The notes under the pieces: model-generated
What the model was told of the DNA's origin: nothing
Seen by the model: only the letters and a program-made list of their open reading frames with translations
Database searches by the model: none
Program-made: the position numbers and the translations under genes
In this document: piece by piece, positions 10,548-28,018 of the stretch
Numbering within the stretch: position 1 is the first letter of the stretch
How the letters are laid out: each line of letters opens with the position of its first letter
Assembly (NCBI GenBank): GCA_012838275.1
Contig: DUPO01000129.1
Coordinates: 1 to 46,193 of the forward strand
DNA from: Spirochaetales bacterium
GTDB taxonomy: Bacteria; Spirochaetota; Spirochaetia; Sphaerochaetales; Sphaerochaetaceae
Length of the DNA: 46,193 nt
Direction: 5' to 3'

Positions 10548-11147
10548 TTACTCTCCTCTGATAATGCGCTTGGCGTCGGTTGAAGCTCGGTTGGTCAGGT
10601 TCCTGAAATACTCTGAGGTGCGGGTTGCCCCTGTTATGGCATCGACCTCATTGGGGGCATCGGCGGTACCCTCATTCACCAAGGTGAACGGTGATTTTTT
10701 CCCTTGGAACTGTTGGGTGAACCAAGGTTCCTCGATACGTCCCCCCAAACCGGGTGTTTCGTTCTGGCTGACTATGGCGAGCCCGGAAAAAGTCGTGAGA
10801 TCTTCCTCGAGCCCTACCATGATGGCAATGGTTCCCCAAAGGCCGGGACCTTGCATGGGAAGGATATAACGCTTTCCTTCAGCGGTCTCTGCGGTGTAGT
10901 AGGTGCCGCCATCCTCCACCTGAACCTTTTCCTTGTAAGTTTTTTCTATGCCTTCTGTGGTGGGGGTGTATTCCAATCCGCCGGCGTCGAGAATGGCCCT
11001 TCGGGTAAAGGAGAGTTCATTCGCTGTTGCCCTCTCTTGGGTGCTGAGGAAGAGCCCGGAAGTGATAAGGATGCAGATCACCGTCACCAGGAACATGAAT
11101 AGAAGGGGGTAGATGCGTTTCTTATAGAAGGTCGCTTGTTTTATCAT
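10548..11147 (-). CDS. nqrC: Nqr/Rnf FMN-binding subunit NqrC (RnfG)
   Basis: 199 residues, closer to RnfG (about 200) than to typical NqrC (about 255). One membrane helix (residues 13-33) is followed by an extracytoplasmic FMN-binding domain. The covalent flavin motif is present: D-A-I-T-G-A-T at residues 169-175, where Thr175 should carry FMN through a phosphoester bond. The flavin transferase ApbE needed for this is not in the window. It overlaps nqrB by 4 bases. Confidence 0.92.
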   Translation of the reverse strand: MIKQATFYKKRIYPLLFMFLVTVICILITSGLFLSTQERATANELSFTRRAILDAGGLEYTPTTEGIEKTYKEKVQVEDGGTYYTAETAEGKRYILPMQGPGLWGTIAIMVGLEEDLTTFSGLAIVSQNETPGLGGRIEEPWFTQQFQGKKSPFTLVNEGTADAPNEVDAITGATRTSEYFRNLTNRASTDAKRIIRGE

Positions 11148-12121
11148 GCCACACCCGCCTTTGCCGCTGCCTTGAGTTTTTTCTTGGCTTTGGCGTTCTT
11201 GAGCAACGTATCAAGCAGGGGAGCAAACATGTTGGCCAAGAGTATGGCGAACGTGATTCCCTCTACCCATGTCGAGAAGGTCCGGATAAGGACGGTGAGG
11301 ATGCCGAACATCGCTCCGTATATCCAACGGCCAGCATCAGTCGACTGGGATGCGGAGACCGGGTCGGTGATCATGAAGAACGCTGCAAAGAGGAAGCCTC
11401 CTCCCAAGAGGGCAGCGAGCGGGGTGGCGACAGCCTGAAGGCCGCTTTCTGTTGCAATCTGCAATCCCGTAGCCCAGAAGAGCGTCTGTAGGAGCAGGAA
11501 TGATCCTATAGAAGATACGACTATTTTCCAGTTGGCAGCTTTCTTGTAGATGATGAACAAGCCGCCGAGAAGGATGAGGATGGCACTGGTCTCACCGAAC
11601 GAACCGCTGGTAAACCCGAAAAGCATATCCAGAAGCGGAACATCCTTGGTCAAGAGCGGAGTGGCTGCCGATACGCTATCCGCTTGGGTAAGCCATGTCC
11701 CGAAGCCGGCTGGGAACCAGTTGATGCTCGTGGCGTTGCCGATGAACCTTGTGGTCATCGGGACTCCGAAGCTGATATAGATGAAGGCTCGCGCTGTTAT
11801 GGCAGGGTTGAAGATGTTCCGTCCGAATCCTCCGAATATCATCTTTCCGAAAATGATACCGAAGGCGATTCCCAAAGCAGCTATCCATAAGGGTATGGTA
11901 GGCGGCAGGGAGAGGGCAAAAAGGGTGCACGATACGAACAGGGATTCGGTAATCTTGAACCCATACCGTTTGGACATGAACCATTCGCATAACAGCCCTG
12001 TCACTCCTACCACTACAAATACAGCGATGAAGCGCCAGCCAAAGAAATAAATGGCTGCAAGGCATAGCGGAGCAAGAGAGTATAGGACATTACGCATTGC
12101 TTGTTGTTTTTGGATTTTCAC
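11144..12121 (-). CDS. nqrB: Nqr/Rnf FMN-binding membrane subunit NqrB (RnfD)
   Basis: 325 residues, the length of RnfD rather than of classical NqrB (about 410), which has an N-terminal extension. It has about ten hydrophobic segments and the flavinylation motif D-S-V-S-A-A-T at residues 148-154, with Thr154 as the expected FMN attachment site and alanine where glycine is more common. The start is GTG at 12121: GGGGAAG lies four bases before it, while the ATG eight codons later has no ribosome site. It is the first gene of the operon; nqrA, which normally precedes nqrB, is absent. Confidence 0.92.
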   Translation of the reverse strand: MKIQKQQAMRNVLYSLAPLCLAAIYFFGWRFIAVFVVVGVTGLLCEWFMSKRYGFKITESLFVSCTLFALSLPPTIPLWIAALGIAFGIIFGKMIFGGFGRNIFNPAITARAFIYISFGVPMTTRFIGNATSINWFPAGFGTWLTQADSVSAATPLLTKDVPLLDMLFGFTSGSFGETSAILILLGGLFIIYKKAANWKIVVSSIGSFLLLQTLFWATGLQIATESGLQAVATPLAALLGGGFLFAAFFMITDPVSASQSTDAGRWIYGAMFGILTVLIRTFSTWVEGITFAILLANMFAPLLDTLLKNAKAKKKLKAAAKAGVA

Positions 12122-20906: not shown

Positions 20907-21395
20907 ATGAAAGTGACTTTTGGCGGGAATCCCGTAGAACTGGTTGGAAAGAAAATTAAATTGGGCGATACGATCGATAACTTTACTGCTGTAAAAAACG
21001 ATCTCAGTCCTTTTAACCTAAGTGAAGTAAAAGGCAGGAAGCTGATTCTTGCCGTCCCGTCTCTGGATACCTCTGTCTGTGATGCTGAAGTAAGGCGCTT
21101 CAACCAAGAAGCCACCAAATTCAAGGATGTCACGGTCATTGTCGTATCTATGGACCTCCCGTTTGCCCAGGCGCGTTGGTGCGGAGCTGCTGGAGTTGAG
21201 AATGTCATCACAGTCAGTGATTACAAGGATCGTGAATTTGCTCATGCCTTTGGGGCATATTTACCAAACGTCGGCCTTATCGCCCGTTCGGTTTTCTTGT
21301 TGGATAAAAATAACAAACTGACCTATATGGAATATGTTCCTGAGGTGACAGACCATCCTAACTATGAAGCGGCACTAAAGGCTGTGCAAGCTTAA
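20907..21395 (+). CDS. tpx: Thiol peroxidase (atypical 2-Cys peroxiredoxin)
   Basis: 162 residues, typical for Tpx, which reduces hydroperoxides with thioredoxin. The peroxidatic Cys58 lies in 'PSLDTSVCDAEVRRFN' with the conserved Thr55, and the resolving Cys92 in 'QARWCGAAGVENV'. The N-terminal 'VTFGGNPVELVG' is typical. A strong terminator follows 20 bases after the stop, so it is probably monocistronic. Confidence 0.97.
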   Translation: MKVTFGGNPVELVGKKIKLGDTIDNFTAVKNDLSPFNLSEVKGRKLILAVPSLDTSVCDAEVRRFNQEATKFKDVTVIVVSMDLPFAQARWCGAAGVENVITVSDYKDREFAHAFGAYLPNVGLIARSVFLLDKNNKLTYMEYVPEVTDHPNYEAALKAVQA

Positions 21396-21463: not shown

Positions 21464-21495
21464 CAAAAAAAGACAATCGTATTACCGATTGTCTT
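21464..21495 (-). terminator. Intrinsic terminator of the tRNA-Leu gene
   Basis: On the minus strand AAGACAATCG and CGATTGTCTT (21470-21495) form a perfect 10-bp stem with a 6-base loop, followed by seven T residues. It begins 5 bases after the tRNA 3' end. Confidence 0.85.
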
Positions 21496-21499
21496 AAAG

Positions 21500-21583
21500 T
21501 GCCCAGAAAAAGACTCGAACTTTCACGACCTTGCGGCCACTAGGACCTGAACCTAGCGCGTCTACCAGTTCCGCCACCTGGGC
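21500..21583 (-). tRNA. tRNA-Leu (anticodon CAG)
   Basis: 84 bases fold as a class II tRNA. The acceptor stem pairs GCCCAGG with TCTGGGC, the anticodon stem-loop is CTAGG-TTCAGGT-CCTAG giving anticodon CAG, a long variable arm follows, and the T-loop TTCGAGT is present. The 3' CCA is not encoded; discriminator base is A. Confidence 0.95.
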
Positions 21584-21628
21584 GCAGTGCAAACTATAAA
21601 GTATTATTGGATTGAGTGTCAACAGAGT

Positions 21629-21900
21629 TTATTGGGTAATAAGTACTGTAGCCTGGGCAATGACAGCACCGCCGCTACCTACTTCGTTGAGCATCCCCTC
21701 AGCAGTCTTTGCCTTGACGGAGACCTGTTCAATAGTTAGGTTCATGAGTTTTGCCAGGTTTTCGATGGAGTGGGGCGGTAGTTCTTGCTGTATTACCTGC
21801 CTGAGGAGCTGTTGGCTGTCGGCATCCTTATAGGCTGGATGGGTGTCGGGGAAGTGGAAGCCGATGTCCCCTTTTGCCAATGCACCCAGGATGGCTGACT
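21629..21900 (-). pseudogene. Broken second ispF, C-terminal part
   Basis: The minus strand encodes about 88 residues from '[17 protein letters not shown]' to '[12 protein letters not shown]', closely matching the intact IspF at 24605-25075. The first ~46 residues, with the metal ligands, are missing here, and 22 internal residues (from DTTIILQ to IRKNL in the intact copy) are deleted in frame between two short 'NL' repeats. Homology breaks off near 21900, where a proline-iminopeptidase fragment begins on the other strand. This cannot be a working enzyme. Confidence 0.9.
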
Positions 21901-21904
21901 GTAT

Positions 21905-22298
21905 TGCCTGCCAGCGGTATGCCGATGAAGTGCTTGCACCCCAGATGGAGAGGGCAATCCTAAAAAGGATCAAGGAACTGGAGGCTGAGGGAAAGTATGA
22001 CACTGAAGAGTACGACTCCCTGTTGGTCCCCTACTATGAGCGTCATGTGTTCAGACAGCCAATGGAGTCATGGCCTGAGTGTGTTGTCAACCGGTCGAAG
22101 GAGCTCCCCTCAATTGGGATTCCAACACTCACTATTGGTGCAGAGTATTACATTATGGATCCTGCATATATGGATTGGATGGCGACACAGTTCCCCAATG
22201 GCTCCTATCTCTACTGTCCCGATGCCGGACATATGGCTATGTGGGATGACCCTGAAGGGTATCACAAGGGACTGGCTGATTTCATAAACAAGGTTTGA
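21905..22298 (+). pseudogene. Proline iminopeptidase-family hydrolase, C-terminal fragment
   Basis: About 130 residues from '[18 protein letters not shown]' to 'FINKV' resemble the C-terminal half of proline iminopeptidase-type alpha/beta hydrolases. The last strand and the catalytic His in 'YCPDAGHMAMWDDPE' are present, but the nucleophile domain is gone. The frame is open to the left only by reading antisense through the ispF remnant, and there is no ribosome site. It is therefore a relic. An imperfect hairpin (ACTGCCCCG/CGGGACAGT) follows the stop. Confidence 0.8.
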
Positions 22299-22350
22299 AA
22301 GATACTGCCCCGTTACTATGCGGGACAGTCCTATAAGCTTTAGAAGCCGG

Positions 22351-22408
22351 CTTCTCTCTTGTCATGGGGAATATGAACTCCTCCAATGATACGGTTTCTG
22401 TTTGGTAC
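22351..22408 (-). pseudogene. Broken second ispF, displaced N-terminal piece
   Basis: These 58 bases resemble the start of the intact ispF (24981-25040), including the part coding 'GGVHIPHDK' and the shared TCTGTTTGGTAC. It has the same orientation as the C-terminal piece, from which it is separated by the ~400-base iminopeptidase fragment. It ends abruptly at 22408, where a different repeat begins. Confidence 0.75.
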
Positions 22409-22503
22409 TATACCCTATATCCACTCCTGCTCCTCTGCCAAGCTTCAAAAGTATCAGGAGGATGGTCGGAGGATGGTCACAGGTTTTCCTTGCCCAAGAG
22501 ACC
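22406..22503. repeat. Direct repeat, copy 1
   Basis: Matches 24231-24348 with moderate divergence: both contain ACC-CTATATCC, CTTCAAAAG-ATCAGGA and TGGTCACAGGTTTT. This copy lacks a 27-base internal block present in copy 2 and carries an 11-base tandem duplication (GGAGGATGGTC). The two copies are in the same orientation and flank the FAD oxidoreductase at 22631-24076. Confidence 0.8.
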
Positions 22504-22592
22504 TGTTACTTTTCTCTTGGATGAGCCTTTTTGTTCATGGTGAACAGAGTGTCAGCATAGCTGGAGGGGAAGACGTTGTTGGCAGCATTTTA

Positions 22593-22621
22593 TTGTAGAT
22601 TACCTTAGGCTGTGATACATT
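22593..22621 (+). promoter_or_regulatory. Promoter of the GlpA-like gene
   Basis: TTGTAG (22593-22598), 17 bases, TACATT (22616-22621). The ATG follows only nine bases after the -10 and no Shine-Dalgarno is present, so the transcript should be nearly or fully leaderless. Confidence 0.5.
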
Positions 22622-22630
22622 CAATCTACT

Positions 22631-24076
22631 ATGAAAAACCACTATTCAGTTATTATTATTGGTGCCGGTATACTAGGCAGTGCACTAGCATATCAGCTTT
22701 CTCACTATGAGAAGTCGATTCTTGTTCTGGAAAAGGCAGAAGATGTTTCCTGCGGAGCAACTAAGGCGAACAGTGGCATTATCCACGGCGGGTATACCGC
22801 AAAGCATACTACCCTTAAAGGCTTATACTCCATACGGGGCAACAGGATGTACCACTCCCTTTCTGAAAAACTTGGATTTCCCTTTCAGAGGATTGGATCA
22901 CTTGTACTTGGGTTTAATGAACGTGATGATACAGAGATTCACTATCTTTTGGAAAATGGAAAAGCCAATGGAGTTACTGGGCTTAAAATTCTTACCTCCC
23001 AGCAGGTAAGGAATAAAGAACCTTTGGTCAATGAACAAGTAACAGGAGCTCTTTACTGTGATGAAACTGGAATAGCAAGCCCCTATGAGGCTGCTATTGC
23101 CTTTGCTGAAACTGCCGCTTCTCATGGAGTTACTATAGAATGCAACAGTGAAGTTATAGGTATCGAAAAAGAAGGGGACTGCCTGAAAGTGTCCACAGTG
23201 AATGCAGTATATTACACTCAGGCTGTGGTGAATGCGGCAGGTCTTTACAGTGATGCTGTAGCAGCGATGATTGGTGAGAAAACTTTTACCATTCTCCCCA
23301 AAAGGGGTGAATACCTCGTGCTCAAAAGGGGAGCCGGTACCGATTTTACTACCGTTATCTTCCAGACGCCTACAGAAAAAGGTAAAGGGGTGCTCATTTC
23401 CCCCACAACCTGGAACAACCTGCTTATCGGTCCCAATGCTCAAGAGACTCAAGACAGAGAAGATGTGGGAAATAGTTTTGAAGTGCTGAAATCGATGTAT
23501 GAACAGGCGAAGCTAAGTGTTCCTAGTCTGAATCTTTCTTCTGTTATCAGATATTTTACAGGAATCAGAGCAACCTCTGATAGCAAGGATTTTATCATAG
23601 GCAGAACACAGACACCCGGATTTTATCAGGCGGCAGGGATTGATTCCCCAGGGTTTACCAGTGCCCCGGCAATTGCAGAAGATATCTGCACCATGCTCAT
23701 AGAAGATGGAATTATTTCTGGGAACAAGAGGATCCCAGACTTCAAGAGAAATCCGATACTGCTGCCAAGCGATCTACAGCCTTTTTCACAGATACAAGAA
23801 GATATCACTCTCGCTGAAGGGAATCCTGAACGGATTGTGTGCAGGTGCGAACAGGTGCGTGAAAAGACAATTGAAGATGCTTTATCCCGTTCCATAGCAA
23901 TTAATTCAATTGATGCTGTGAAACGAAGAGCAAGGGCGGGCATGGGGGCGTGCCAAGGGAAATTCTGCCGCCCTAGAGTGCAGCAATATATTCAAAAAGA
24001 ACTTAAAACAGGTGAAAAAGTGCTTATGCCAAAGCAGAAAGATGAACAACTTCTTGCTAAATTGAGAAAACTGTAA
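22631..24076 (+). CDS. GlpA/LhgO-like FAD-dependent oxidoreductase with BFD-type Fe-S domain
   Basis: 481 residues. FAD-binding 'VIIIGAGILGSALAYQLSHY' at residues 7-26, then a DAO-fold with 'TKANSGIIHGGY' and 'FTGIRATSDSKDFIIG', as in anaerobic glycerol-3-phosphate dehydrogenase GlpA and relatives. The C-terminal ~80 residues form a BFD-like [2Fe-2S] domain: 'IVCRCEQV' and 'GMGACQGKFCRP' supply four cysteines. In many anaerobes this gene sits with a second FAD protein and a small DUF1667 gene; both partners are absent here. It is richer in A+T than its neighbours, has no ribosome site, and is flanked by direct repeats, all suggesting acquisition. The substrate is a 2-hydroxyacid or glycerol phosphate at best guess. 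Confidence 0.87.
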   Translation: MKNHYSVIIIGAGILGSALAYQLSHYEKSILVLEKAEDVSCGATKANSGIIHGGYTAKHTTLKGLYSIRGNRMYHSLSEKLGFPFQRIGSLVLGFNERDDTEIHYLLENGKANGVTGLKILTSQQVRNKEPLVNEQVTGALYCDETGIASPYEAAIAFAETAASHGVTIECNSEVIGIEKEGDCLKVSTVNAVYYTQAVVNAAGLYSDAVAAMIGEKTFTILPKRGEYLVLKRGAGTDFTTVIFQTPTEKGKGVLISPTTWNNLLIGPNAQETQDREDVGNSFEVLKSMYEQAKLSVPSLNLSSVIRYFTGIRATSDSKDFIIGRTQTPGFYQAAGIDSPGFTSAPAIAEDICTMLIEDGIISGNKRIPDFKRNPILLPSDLQPFSQIQEDITLAEGNPERIVCRCEQVREKTIEDALSRSIAINSIDAVKRRARAGMGACQGKFCRPRVQQYIQKELKTGEKVLMPKQKDEQLLAKLRKL

Positions 24077-24083
24077 CAACAGT

Positions 24084-24203
24084 AGTGAATACGTGCATAT
24101 GCACCATGTATAGAGGATCTGGGACCATTAGAGTCTTCGCACCGCAGGAAAAATAAGAATCAAACTCTGATTTGCCTTCTTCGGTTGGGATTGCTACGGT
24201 TTC
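24084..24203 (-). pseudogene. Possible decayed NifX/dinitrogenase-cofactor-type fragment
   Basis: A 40-codon frame without its own start reads 'VAIPTEEGKSEFDSYFSCG' then 'AKTLMVPDPL'. This resembles the N-terminus of NifX/NifB-type dinitrogenase iron-molybdenum cofactor proteins (K-I-A-I-P-T-E-x-G ... F-G-x-A). The match is short and the gene is incomplete on both sides, so this is tentative. Confidence 0.25.
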
Positions 24204-24230
24204 TTAACGATCATGTATAGGATTGTCTGA

Positions 24231-24348
24231 TACTCTACCCTATATCCTGCCCTGCTTCTCTACCAAGCTATCAAGGGCAACTACCTGGGTGACAGTAGCT
24301 TCAAAAGCATCAGGAAGATGGTCACAGGTTTTCTTTGCCCAAGAGACC
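24231..24348. repeat. Direct repeat, copy 2
   Basis: Longer version of the repeat at 22406-22503. On the minus strand it reads 'VSWAKKTCDHLPDAFEATV' then 'TQVVALDSLVEKQGRI', which looks like genuine protein sequence, so the repeat is probably a piece of a former gene. It lies between the FAD oxidoreductase and ispF. Confidence 0.75.
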
Positions 24349-24600
24349 AACCGATGATCTTGAGCTTGGAGATACTACTTGTATCGCTCCCTTTTCATCA
24401 GTTCTTGTTTGGCCAACTCTCATTGCATGGATACCACTATACCCTGTAGGAAAGAGTGCACCATGCCAAGTAGATTCTTGTTGCATTGCATAGCCTAGGC
24501 TGTTCATGCGTCCAAGGGCTTGTCCTTGAAGAGGTGCTACCTCAGCAAGGGGTTGGAGAAGAGCTTCTTTTCGCGAGGATACCTGTGGCGTGATTGGGCA
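24231..24600 (-). pseudogene. Decayed gene of unknown family downstream of ispF
   Basis: The minus strand carries a protein-like frame just after the ispF stop, containing 'QGQALGRMNSLGYAMQQEST' and 'HGALFPTGYSGIHAMRVGQT'. It runs into a stop near 24322 but continues in another frame with 'SWAKKTCDHLPDAFEATV'. A frameshift in a once-functional gene explains this. I cannot name the family. Together with the fragment at 24084-24203 it fills the 528-base gap between the FAD oxidoreductase and ispF. Confidence 0.5.
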
Positions 24601-24604
24601 TGGC

Positions 24605-25075
24605 CTATACAGTAAGTAAGACCGTTGCCTGGGCTATGATGGCATCCCCGCTTCCCACCTCGTTGAGCATCCCTTCGGCGGTCTTTGCCTTTACGGAAAC
24701 TTGTTCGATCGTGAGGTTCATGAGGTTTGCCAGATTTTTTCGTATCGCATCAATATGCTCACGTAGTTTAGGCCTTTGGAGAATGATGGTGGTATCGAGG
24801 TTTTTGATGGAGTAGGGGGGTAGTTCTTGCTGTATTACCTGCTTGAGGAGCTGTTGGCTGTCAGCATTTTTATAGGAGGGGTCAGTATCAGGAAAATGGG
24901 AACCGATGTCCCCTTTGGCTAAAGCCCCCAGGATCGCATCGATGATGGCATGGACAAGCACATCCCCATCGCTGTGGCCCTCCTCTCCTTTGTCATGGGG
25001 GATATGGACCCCTCCGAGGACCAGAGGTCTGTTTGGTACCAGAGCATGGATGTCCCAGCCACTGCCTATCCTCAT
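24605..25075 (-). CDS. ispF: 2-C-methyl-D-erythritol 2,4-cyclodiphosphate synthase
   Basis: 156 residues, full length. IspF cyclises CDP-ME 2-phosphate in the MEP isoprenoid pathway. Metal ligands Asp8, His10 and His42 are present in 'GWDIHAL' and 'GDVLVHAIIDAILGAL'; 'DIGSHFPDTDP' and '[11 protein letters not shown]' are family motifs. The start overlaps the ispD stop by 4 bases. A broken paralog lies at 21629-22408. Confidence 0.97.
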   Translation of the reverse strand: MRIGSGWDIHALVPNRPLVLGGVHIPHDKGEEGHSDGDVLVHAIIDAILGALAKGDIGSHFPDTDPSYKNADSQQLLKQVIQQELPPYSIKNLDTTIILQRPKLREHIDAIRKNLANLMNLTIEQVSVKAKTAEGMLNEVGSGDAIIAQATVLLTV

Positions 25076-25881
25076 GTGTTTGCCTGCTCCCGTTTCACCT
25101 GGCTCATCGCCTGTTCAAGTGCTATCGCAGCTTGTGCTTTCCTTTTTCCCTCTTCAAGGGCTTTCAGGTAGTTCTCGATCTGCTCTTCTGCATTGGGAAT
25201 ATCTTCCAGGAAGGTTATCTTGCGGTTACCTCTCTCTCCTTCACAGATGCCTACGCTCATTCCGAAGTCGGAAAACACCTGGGTGTCGTCCACATACCCT
25301 TTGTCGTTTGCTTTGGCACTCTGGTGTGCTGTGAGGATTTCGGGAAAATGAAATATCTGGGGAGTCTGGACCGCCACAGTCTCAGACCGTTCGATGTGAG
25401 TCTGTATTACCCCATTCCTGTCTATGCCCTTCAAGGCGTCGGTAGGGCTTAGGGCGGGAACCGCCCCTCCAAAGACTGTAGCTGTCGCCAGGGTGCGAAT
25501 GATCAGATCCGCAGTGACGAAACAGCGCGCACCATCATGGATTGCAACATATTCGATGGGAAGAGACATGGTTCCAAGCATTTTCAATGCGTTGTACACA
25601 GACTCCTGCCTGTTCTTGCCACCCTCCACTAGGATGACCGGAATGAGATTCTGGTCGAATATTTCTTCTAGCGCAACGGCACACTGGTCAGCCATTCCCT
25701 TGGGATGGGTGACTATGATAGCTCTCAAGTTGGGAACCTGTAAAAAAGGCTCTACCGCTCGGTAGAGCACTGTATGCTCATCTATGCTGAGATACTCTTT
25801 CTTGACCCCATGGCGTTGCTTGTTGAACCTGTCACTGCTGCCAGCAGCAGTGACTATGACTGCGTGTTCTGGAAAAGCCAT
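25072..25881 (-). CDS. ispD: 2-C-methyl-D-erythritol 4-phosphate cytidylyltransferase
   Basis: 269 residues. IspD couples CTP to MEP. The CTP-binding N-terminus reads 'VIVTAAGSSDRFN', a variant of A-A-G-x-G-x-R in which Ser replaces the second Gly. 'VEGGKNRQESVYNAL', 'VAIHDGARCFV' and 'VQTPQIFHF' are all diagnostic. The C-terminal ~35 residues are a charged helix beyond the usual end of the family. GGAGAAG precedes the start, which lies at the carD stop codon. Confidence 0.95.
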   Translation of the reverse strand: MAFPEHAVIVTAAGSSDRFNKQRHGVKKEYLSIDEHTVLYRAVEPFLQVPNLRAIIVTHPKGMADQCAVALEEIFDQNLIPVILVEGGKNRQESVYNALKMLGTMSLPIEYVAIHDGARCFVTADLIIRTLATATVFGGAVPALSPTDALKGIDRNGVIQTHIERSETVAVQTPQIFHFPEILTAHQSAKANDKGYVDDTQVFSDFGMSVGICEGERGNRKITFLEDIPNAEEQIENYLKALEEGKRKAQAAIALEQAMSQVKREQANT

Positions 25882-25882
25882 G

Positions 25883-26386
25883 CTACTTCTCCAAGCGGGA
25901 GAAGACTAGCATCTCTATTTCTTTCTTGTCCTTGTCCAAGGAGTAGGCTGTCTCGTCAATGAGAAGCCTCAATGCATTGTCATAAAGCTTGCGCTCCTGG
26001 ACCGGAAGCTCTTTTATCTTGCTTCGGTGGTAGAGAGCTTGAACGACCTTGGCAATGGATGCGATGGATCCCTGCCTGAGCAGGTCGACATTCATCTGGT
26101 AGCGGACCTTCCAATCGACTGGCATAGGCTCGTACTTGCTTGAAATGGTCTCGATGGCAGCTTCTGCTTCCTCTTTGGGAACTATTGCTCTGATACCCAT
26201 CTCGTCTGACTTGTCTACTGGAATCATGACAGTCATGTCGGAGATGTCCAGATAGATGACATAGTAGAGGGTCTCTGTCCCCCTGAACATGCGCTCTTCA
26301 ACGCGTTCGATGACGCCTACCCCTTGTAACGGATAAACGACGTGATCTCCAACTGAAAACTGAACAATATCCTGCAATGAACTCAT
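25883..26386 (-). CDS. carD: CarD-family transcription regulator
   Basis: 167 residues from MSSLQDI. CarD proteins bind the RNA polymerase beta subunit and stabilise open promoter complexes. The N-terminal RID domain is clear: 'FSVGDHVVYPLQGVGVIERV' at residues 9-28; the C-terminal helical part resembles the DNA-binding half. The frame is open further upstream, but those codons cover the promoter. There is no Shine-Dalgarno: TATAAT ends six bases before the ATG, so the mRNA is predicted leaderless. First gene of carD-ispD-ispF. Confidence 0.93.
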   Translation of the reverse strand: MSSLQDIVQFSVGDHVVYPLQGVGVIERVEERMFRGTETLYYVIYLDISDMTVMIPVDKSDEMGIRAIVPKEEAEAAIETISSKYEPMPVDWKVRYQMNVDLLRQGSIASIAKVVQALYHRSKIKELPVQERKLYDNALRLLIDETAYSLDKDKKEIEMLVFSRLEK

Positions 26387-26392
26387 AGTGTC

Positions 26393-26421
26393 ATTATATC
26401 CTATTTTCGCACTTAGAACAA
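26393..26421 (-). promoter_or_regulatory. Leaderless promoter of carD-ispD-ispF
   Basis: TTGTTC (26416-26421), 17 bases, TATAAT (26393-26398), then six bases to the ATG at 26386. The -10 is a perfect consensus. Transcription should start at or within a base or two of the start codon. Confidence 0.7.
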
Positions 26422-26454
26422 GCAAGCGAGGATTTATTGAAACTAGGAGACCGA

Positions 26455-26484
26455 TAGGCAAAAACACCGACAATAGAGTATAGT
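26455..26484 (+). promoter_or_regulatory. Leaderless promoter of malQ
   Basis: TATAGT at 26479-26484 lies seven bases before the malQ ATG; a weak TAGGCA -35 sits 18 bases upstream. No ribosome site is present between. Confidence 0.5.
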
Positions 26485-26491
26485 TACAACT

Positions 26492-28018
26492 ATGGAACAC
26501 CTTCAAAGAAGATGCGGTGTGCTGCTGCACCCGACATCACTGCCTTCGGCATATGGAATAGGGAGCTTTGGCGATGAGGCCTTTGCCTTCGTCGACCTGC
26601 TTAAGAGCGCCAAAGTAACGCTTTGGCAGATTCTTCCGCTCGGCCCGACCGGATATGGGGACTCCCCCTACGCAGCCCGTTCGACTTTTGCTGGAAATGA
26701 ACTGCTCATCGACCTGAAAGTACTGGCCTATGACGGCTACCTCGATTTGGAAGATATACTCAACACAGTCGAGTTCCCCCTCGATCGCATAGACTATGGG
26801 AAGGTCAGGGAGTTTAAGGAACCTCTTCTGGTAAAGGCAGCTGATGCATTCCTTGCCGATACAGAGCTGGCAATTGTGAAACAGTATGCGCTTTTCTGCA
26901 AAGAGAACAGCTGGTGGCTTGATGACTATGCCCTCTACCAGGTGTTGTGCAAAGTGTACAACGATTCTCGCTGGCACACCATCTGGCCCGAGCCCCTTCG
27001 TCTTCGCGACGAGGAGGCCTTGGCAGAGGCACGGGTGAAATATGCGGTGGATATCGAGCGGTACAAAGCCTTGCAGTACCTGTTCTTTGAGCAGTACGCA
27101 AAGCTCAAGGCGTATGCTAACAAGAACCGGGTATCCATCATCGGGGACATCCCGATCTTTGTTGCGCCGGACAGCGTCGATGCATGGGCAAACCGTCATC
27201 TTTTCAAGATGGACGCGCAAGGTAGGCAGACCGCTTCCAGCGGGGTTCCCCCCGATGCATTCTCTGACGAAGGCCAACACTGGGGCAATCCTGTCTACAA
27301 CTGGAAAGAGCATGAGAAGGATGGCTTTTCCTGGTGGATCAAACGAATAGAGAAGACCCTTGAGGTATGTGACATTATCAGGGTCGACCACTTCAGAGGC
27401 TTTGCTGCATATTGGGAGATTCCCAAGGGGGAAAAGACTGCGATCAACGGCAAATGGGTTCCTTCTCCAGGGAAAAAGTTGTTTTCCGCATTGAAGGAAG
27501 CCCTCGGTGATGCGATACCCCTTATCGCTGAGGACTTGGGAGTCATAACACCTGATGTAGAAGAGCTTCGTGACTCGAATAACCTGCCGGGAATGAAAAT
27601 CCTGCAGTTTGCCTTTGGCTTGAGGGGTGATGTATTGGATGCCACCAATGCATACCTTCCCCACAACTGCCAGTACAACAGTGTCATCTACACGGGAACT
27701 CATGACAACAACACCACCAGAGGTTGGTATGATGCCTTGGATCCCGGTACTAAGGACAAGGTACGCCGTTACCTTGAAGCCCCTGATGACCAGATAGTTT
27801 GGCAGATGATACGCATCATGCTTCTGTCGGCTTCCAAGGATGCCATCTTGCCAATGCAGGACCTGCTCGGTCTCGGTGCCGAGGCACGTATGAACGTGCC
27901 TTCGACCGTTGGCATGAGCAACTGGAGCTGGCGCATGAAAAATCTCAATGAGATAGAAGAGTGGAGAATCGACCGCTTGCGTGGCATGATCGAAATATAT
28001 GGTAGGGAAGGGCTCTAG
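26492..28018 (+). CDS. malQ: 4-alpha-glucanotransferase (amylomaltase)
   Basis: 508 residues, the length of bacterial GH77 amylomaltases, which transfer alpha-1,4-glucan segments between maltodextrins. 'GVLLHPTSLPSAYGIGSFG' at the N-terminus, 'IGDIPIFVAPDSVD', the nucleophile Asp in 'DIIRVDHFRGFAAYW', acid/base Glu in 'LIAEDLG' and 'YTGTHDNNTTRGW' are all family signatures. It has no Shine-Dalgarno; TATAGT is seven bases before the ATG. It overlaps the convergent lplA by 4 bases. Confidence 0.97.
   Translation: MEHLQRRCGVLLHPTSLPSAYGIGSFGDEAFAFVDLLKSAKVTLWQILPLGPTGYGDSPYAARSTFAGNELLIDLKVLAYDGYLDLEDILNTVEFPLDRIDYGKVREFKEPLLVKAADAFLADTELAIVKQYALFCKENSWWLDDYALYQVLCKVYNDSRWHTIWPEPLRLRDEEALAEARVKYAVDIERYKALQYLFFEQYAKLKAYANKNRVSIIGDIPIFVAPDSVDAWANRHLFKMDAQGRQTASSGVPPDAFSDEGQHWGNPVYNWKEHEKDGFSWWIKRIEKTLEVCDIIRVDHFRGFAAYWEIPKGEKTAINGKWVPSPGKKLFSALKEALGDAIPLIAEDLGVITPDVEELRDSNNLPGMKILQFAFGLRGDVLDATNAYLPHNCQYNSVIYTGTHDNNTTRGWYDALDPGTKDKVRRYLEAPDDQIVWQMIRIMLLSASKDAILPMQDLLGLGAEARMNVPSTVGMSNWSWRMKNLNEIEEWRIDRLRGMIEIYGREGL

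Follow-up and report, generated by a model that had tools for sequence, protein, structure and literature searches.

The segment at about 21636-24590 of the window, by which we mean the whole 46,193-nucleotide stretch of DNA analysed here and whose host we take to be a Sphaerochaeta-type spirochaete, is best read as a decayed insertion within the junction between ispF and tRNA-Leu(CAG), that is, as an ordinary kind of genomic scar. It is a graveyard of broken genes, holding two direct repeats, three fragments of a second ispF, the tail of a proline iminopeptidase gene and the start of a Fic-family gene, bordered by tRNA-Leu(CAG) on the left and by an intact ispF-ispD-carD block on the right, with a FAD oxidoreductase gene lying between the repeats. 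We think it moderately probable that foreign DNA joined the chromosome at ispF and left this gene duplicated, the oxidoreductase gene alone staying intact, by an integration route that we infer from the arrangement of the pieces.

Searches were made in 60 genomes, namely the window's own genome (G000, a draft assembly of 2.36 Mb in 229 contigs with 4% contamination) and 59 relatives, 25 of which are the other genomes of the genus. The coordinates of the features are collected in Table 1.

Table 1. Features of the decayed segment and of its borders, in window coordinates.
Feature	Position	Strand	Evidence or remark
tRNA-Leu (CAG), left border of the graveyard	21499..21583	(-)	
TTGACA ... TATAGT motif, probable tRNA promoter, between the ispF remnant and tRNA-Leu	21593..21622	(-)	
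ispF remnant, 3' part	21636..21762	(-)	80% to the intact copy
ispF remnant, middle part	21756..21895	(-)	84% to the intact copy; between it and the 3' part 59 nt of ispF are missing
Proline iminopeptidase, decayed C-terminal part, cut into the ispF remnant	21890..22298	(+)	
ispF remnant, 5' part, fused to repeat A	22346..22408	(-)	75% to intact ispF, 82% to G016/G021 ispF
Repeat A, 3' part of a DUF4037/Pol-beta nucleotidyltransferase gene, decayed and with an 11-bp tandem duplication	22399..22568	(-)	Repeat alignment, protein and translated matches
Leader/promoter stretch conserved with G007	22588..22630	(+)	35/43 bases; the 100 bases further upstream 23/100, ungapped
Intact FAD oxidoreductase (DAO and BFD-like [2Fe-2S] domains), GlpA/GlpO-like, stand-alone subfamily, probably horizontally acquired	22631..24076	(+)	
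Repeat B, a second 3' part of such a nucleotidyltransferase gene, likewise decayed	24224..24359	(-)	Repeat alignment, DNA and translated matches
Fic-family gene, decayed 5' part (DUF4172 and Fic)	24351..24589	(-)	Best DNA match among the 59 relatives is G026
Intact ispF	24605..25075	(-)	
Intact ispD	25072..25881	(-)	
carD-like gene	25883..26530	(-)	The syntenic block shared with relatives starts here

Direct repeats in the same orientation on both sides of the oxidoreductase gene had been described in an earlier note made from the sequence, and self-comparison of the window bears them out, with the copies refined to 22399-22503 (A) and 24224-24348 (B). Their alignment has three gap-free blocks, of 46 nt (83% identity), 32 nt (88%) and 36 nt (94%), and from the spacings of these blocks (1825, 1856 and 1845) it follows that 31 bases of copy B are missing from copy A, and not 27 as had been stated, while the 11-base tandem duplication of copy A had been described correctly. 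Since copy A shares its first 10 bp (22399-22408) with the adjoining ispF fragment, the repeat proper begins near 22409. A search of the whole 2.36 Mb assembly found two copies in all, the second at E = 4e-10; the other 13 of its 15 matches at E <= 10 are 14-24 bp long (E 0.1-4.5).

Both copies match the 3' part of one gene family, and for this reason they are the remains of a protein gene, namely two decayed ends of a nucleotidyltransferase gene, and not recombination signals. In a translated BLAST search of the fragments, from which nine loci of the window's own contig had been left out beforehand, copy A matches the nucleotidyltransferase gene of G016 in frame over 33 aa at 58% identity and copy B over 27 aa at 59%, and similar translated matches were obtained with the nucleotidyltransferase genes of other members of the genus. 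At the DNA level the repeat has three matches in the 59 relatives: two (G020 and G025) fall inside the nucleotidyltransferase gene at another locus and the third (G030, 27 bp) inside an unrelated ORF of 400 aa. The G020 gene encodes 262 residues with DUF4037 over the cut-off and a Pol-beta (Polbeta) match below it. The gene was matched in 17 of the 25 other genomes of the genus (in G015 partially, at a contig end), and in relatives it is open and located elsewhere, while in G000 the sole match to the nucleotidyltransferase protein is the remnant at 22467-22568, with one stop inside.

Transposon ends were rejected as an identity for the repeats, given that the assembly holds just two copies and that both match the nucleotidyltransferase gene; nor do the repeats frame a composite transposon or an IS-flanked unit, as they are not insertion sequences but pieces of that DUF4037 gene. 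The repeats are neither the ends of a mobile element nor an array. These results also bear on the origin that had been proposed for the oxidoreductase gene, namely entry by homologous recombination between pre-existing repeats, or survival from a collapsed tandem array. The repeats do directly flank the gene in the same orientation, and an insertion accompanied by duplication of the nucleotidyltransferase end is conceivable for the inner pair. However, the repeat derives from a protein gene sited elsewhere in relatives. An empty site carrying one repeat copy had been suggested as a check on the proposal; the ispF/tRNA-Leu site is uninterrupted in relatives, but none of the four ispF loci compared (G021, G016, G006 and G009) holds a copy of the repeat. 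With only two copies in the assembly standing against the collapse of an array as well, the proposal was left without support, and we regard it as improbable.

As regards the other fragments, the iminopeptidase piece has DNA matches in 13 of the 59 relatives and no second DNA match within its own genome. The stretch 24077-24223 gave no match in the translated search, and no integrase or transposase is present among the ORFs and fragments identified in 21490-24604 (tRNA, ispF, iminopeptidase, nucleotidyltransferase, GlpA and Fic).

The uninterrupted state of the junction can be seen in the relatives, where tRNA-Leu lies directly after ispF in six of the seven ispF loci scanned, for instance at a distance of 45 bp in G016. 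Because the two genes are neighbours there, the roughly 3 kb that separate the same flanks in the window are read as an insertion, with inserted and decayed DNA lying between them. The TTGACA...TATAGT motif is shared by the remnant copy of the window and the six relatives that have the tRNA beside ispF. At the G021 locus (L087 5025-6949) no tRNA-Leu was found on the contig, and a DDE transposase is located about 0.7 kb beyond ispF.

The insert lies beside a tRNA that serves as an integration site in relatives, and on its 5' side. In G016 and G017, two of the six relatives, a tyrosine integrase gene follows on the far side of this tRNA-Leu, at a distance of 34 bp in the former (L085 11678-13042) and of about 450 bp in the latter (L096 10648-12002); in the other four relatives with the tRNA, the nearest ORFs tested beyond it are not integrases. 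The ORFs that follow the G016 integrase resemble, in our reading, a restriction-modification island. With regard to att repeats, for which exact copies only were searched, the 12-20 nt 3' ends of the tRNA each occur once in the window, and a tRNA att site was rejected, a second exact copy of the tRNA 3' end being absent from the window.

Synteny with G016 ends left of the tRNA. The tpx gene located there (thiol peroxidase, window 20907-21392) encodes a protein with 88% aa identity to that of G026, a member of another genus, the value for ispF in the same pair being 60%, and tpx is probably another acquired gene next to the tRNA. This end of synteny, together with the draft state and the contamination of the assembly, could also be taken to mean that the contig is an artefact joining two organisms or strains. 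Such a join is very improbable, as the longest exact matches (24 bp between the ispF copies and 17 bp between the repeats) are not long enough for an assembler to be misled into a collapse, the pieces show decay and are interleaved, and tRNA-Leu and the 3' end of ispF are joined in the same way as in the relatives.

The two ispF copies, which lie in direct orientation and flank new DNA as in a merodiploid, were compared over 330 alignable columns, the alignment taking in 23 of the 46 relatives with an ispF match. The remnant differs from the intact gene at 12, 6 and 46 sites of codon positions 1, 2 and 3, and the intact gene from its G016 orthologue at 20, 3 and 49, so that the third-position excess between remnant and intact copy is marked (p = 3e-10) and the profile does not differ from that of the intact gene and G016 (p = 0.71). 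Since such an excess is far from what neutral decay would give, the copies diverged mostly as functional genes, the decay of the remnant being comparatively recent. Per 330 columns the remnant differs at 64 from the intact copy, at 78 from G016 and at 82 from G021. In the ispF tree the remnant and the intact copy are each other's sisters with weak support (ultrafast bootstrap 78), next to G016/G021, and no donor is named; site counts in a quartet with G016 and G006 favour no pairing clearly, with 9 for remnant with intact copy, 8 for remnant with G016 and 13 for intact copy with G016.

These figures can also be explained by a tandem duplication within the lineage, comprising ispF and the end of the nucleotidyltransferase gene, after which both ispF copies stayed functional for a long time and the one on the tRNA side died, the oxidoreductase gene being a later and separate acquisition. 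That the nearest sequence to the remnant is the intact ispF of the same genome, that the tree, with weak support, puts the two together, and that both flanks are resident (the tRNA on the left, ispD-carD on the right) all agree with a duplication. Against it, the third-position divergence between the copies (46/109) nearly reaches that between the intact gene and G016 (49/109), their total divergence exceeds that between two species, G016 and G021 (41/330), and each of the 46 relatives with an ispF match has a single one. A duplication of this kind is in our opinion unlikely, though it is the chief competitor of the joining at ispF; taken by itself, the second ispF fits an import from an unsampled sister lineage and a long-lived in-lineage duplicate alike.

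The oxidoreductase ORF is open and 481 aa long. Its best NCBIfam model is NF033460 (type 2 glycerol-3-phosphate oxidase), at 298.4 bits and hence below the cut-off of 460 bits, the score against the GlpA model TIGR03377 is likewise below its cut-off (115.5 vs 552.8 bits), and the best PDB match is 4x9m, L-alpha-glycerophosphate oxidase. The protein resembles the GlpA/GlpO family in its DAO domain and in its best NCBIfam and PDB matches, and differs from it in staying below the NF033460 cut-off and in the added BFD-like [2Fe-2S] domain.

A base composition unlike that of the neighbouring genes and a foreign origin had both been suggested for this gene; the first is confirmed and the second is supported. 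Compared with a background of 140 ORFs of >= 250 aa from the same assembly (244,763 sampled bases), the gene has a GC content of 44.0% and a GC3 of 38.5%, the latter under that of all 140 ORFs (mean 58.6%, sd 5.4); its codon-usage score is just the 17th lowest of 140, which is not extreme, so the difference is mainly one of base composition. Acquisition from another lineage is well supported by sequence comparison, on account of this GC3, the phyletic pattern, the gene tree and the fourfold-site similarity to G007. Among the 25 other genomes of the genus, a close homologue was found in G007 only (80% over 360 residues on its contig), five genomes hold a homologue at 30-31%, and there is no other match at E <= 1e-30 in the genus. 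In one scan of the contigs of named genomes, only that of G007 reached 80%, the other five loci giving 22-49% over part of the protein. In the tree, which took 28 of the 38 non-self matches, the oxidoreductase groups with G007 and then with G047 (support 92) and G056 (86), both from other families, and stands apart from the homologues of its own family (f1). Agreement of the gene's phylogeny with the species tree, which the earlier note had named as evidence that would speak against it, was examined, and the gene tree conflicts with the taxonomy.

At fourfold sites the oxidoreductase gene is identical to that of G007 at 79/148 (53%), and the pooled value of 11 vertical genes is significantly lower, 382/1065 or 36% (p = 4e-5). 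Before pooling, two rows of G007 in which just 18-19 residues align were left out, and the GlpA row covers 360/481 residues, where the G007 contig ends; compared with carD alone the difference is not significant (p = 0.31). The differences to G007 number 42, 41 and 132 at codon positions 1, 2 and 3, and these counts show overall purifying selection. In the tree, the branch of the window's protein is about five times longer than that of G007, which may reflect relaxed selection or adaptation.

Two further sources of the gene were considered and rejected, a viral one as no relative was found among viral contigs in one pattern scan, and a plasmid one as none of the 25 PLSDB records at E <= 1e-40 reaches 60% identity, with 45% for the best-ranked. 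In G007 the start of rnfD and the GlpA gene are on one 5.7 kb contig (L088 1-5743), and in the window rnfD (11144-12121) and GlpA are separated by about 10 kb that contain other genes than in G007; the proximity may be chance or a trace of an old neighbourhood.

It had also been pointed out that the gene lacks its usual operon partners and a ribosome-binding site. The first observation is correct, neither Pyr_redox nor DUF1667 being adjacent to the window's oxidoreductase gene, but its use as a sign of recombination or of a collapsed array does not hold. Pyr_redox is the downstream ORF in seven of the nine homologous loci scanned (nine of ten ORFs, with G057 left out) and not in G047 and G056, and DUF1667, present in 23 of the 60 genomes, is found in none of G000, G007, G047 and G056. 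As G047 and G056, whose genes come closest after that of G007, are also without partners, their lack marks no truncated transfer, and the stand-alone state, without Pyr_redox and DUF1667, is common to the subfamily to which the window's protein belongs. Scanning of further flanking ORFs revealed a DeoR-type regulator and a TauE-type protein in G047, a proton-antiporter-type protein, a hydrolase and a cupin in G056, and a Crp-type regulator and a ferredoxin-type protein upstream of the G007 gene.

The second observation was confirmed as well, no Shine-Dalgarno sequence being visible before the ATG. The stretch conserved with G007 immediately upstream of the gene contains a candidate TTGTAG-17-TACATT promoter, from which transcription could possibly start within a few bases of the ATG and yield a near-leaderless mRNA. 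A scan for consensus promoters found four where 3.3 were expected, and the G007-conserved stretch is not listed among them as a promoter.

The joining of foreign DNA at ispF may be pictured as follows. DNA from other spirochaetes, which either brought a second ispF along or recombined with the resident copy, would have joined the chromosome at ispF by a crossover, with the outcome of two ispF copies in direct orientation and new DNA between them. The copy beside ispD-carD would have stayed intact, while the copy on the tRNA side would have decayed through deletions and the insertion of the iminopeptidase fragment, its 3' flank with the tRNA promoter being kept. Within the insert, the nucleotidyltransferase gene would have been left as two decayed 3' pieces, beside the Fic remnant, and the stand-alone GlpA/GlpO-like oxidoreductase gene between these pieces is the only one still intact, equipped with its own short conserved leader. 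What the comparisons show directly is which genes the fragments come from, that ispF is present twice with divergence mainly at third positions, that the site is uninterrupted in relatives and that GlpA bears foreign signals; the crossover, the sequence in which these events took place and the doubling of the nucleotidyltransferase end are what we infer here. Among the points that count against this reading, the order ispF-nucleotidyltransferase-GlpA-nucleotidyltransferase-Fic-ispF is not made by one simple crossover, and a long-active duplication within the lineage would give the same ispF pattern.

Features of known systems can be recognised in the segment. As in tRNA-adjacent genomic islands, variable DNA is located beside a tRNA, foreign genes are mixed with pseudogenes, and integrases are present beyond the same tRNA-Leu in G016 and G017; unlike in such islands, the insert of the window, flanked by two ispF copies, is 5' of the tRNA, and neither an integrase nor an exact att repeat was found. 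For transformation in Streptococcus pneumoniae, PMC3784515 describes merodiploids arising via recombination with incoming DNA, including tandem duplications of about 100 to 900 kb, self-transformation being among the routes. The segment is like those merodiploids in having a direct gene duplication with one copy intact, one inactive and other DNA between them, and unlike them in that its copies are about 80% identical and only a few kb apart, and in that the route to them is reconstructed from their arrangement. Nothing on this locus itself was found in the literature searched.

In conclusion, conspicuous direct repeats around a foreign gene can be the remains of a broken protein gene and not machinery of transfer, and counts of differences by codon position distinguish the divergence of a working duplicate from the decay of a copy at its site. 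The ispF/tRNA-Leu(CAG) junction is marked by these comparisons as a place of recurring insertions in spirochaete genomes. Tentatively, and with somewhat more doubt than conviction, we suggest that the segment is a fossil left by a crossover between species inside the housekeeping gene ispF, which set copies already about 20% diverged in tandem; the foreign oxidoreductase gene in the middle would have been retained, and the copy lacking ispD would have been lost apart from the end next to the tRNA-Leu promoter. If this is true, the segment would offer a case of homeologous merodiploidy, resolved by decay, that can be dated.
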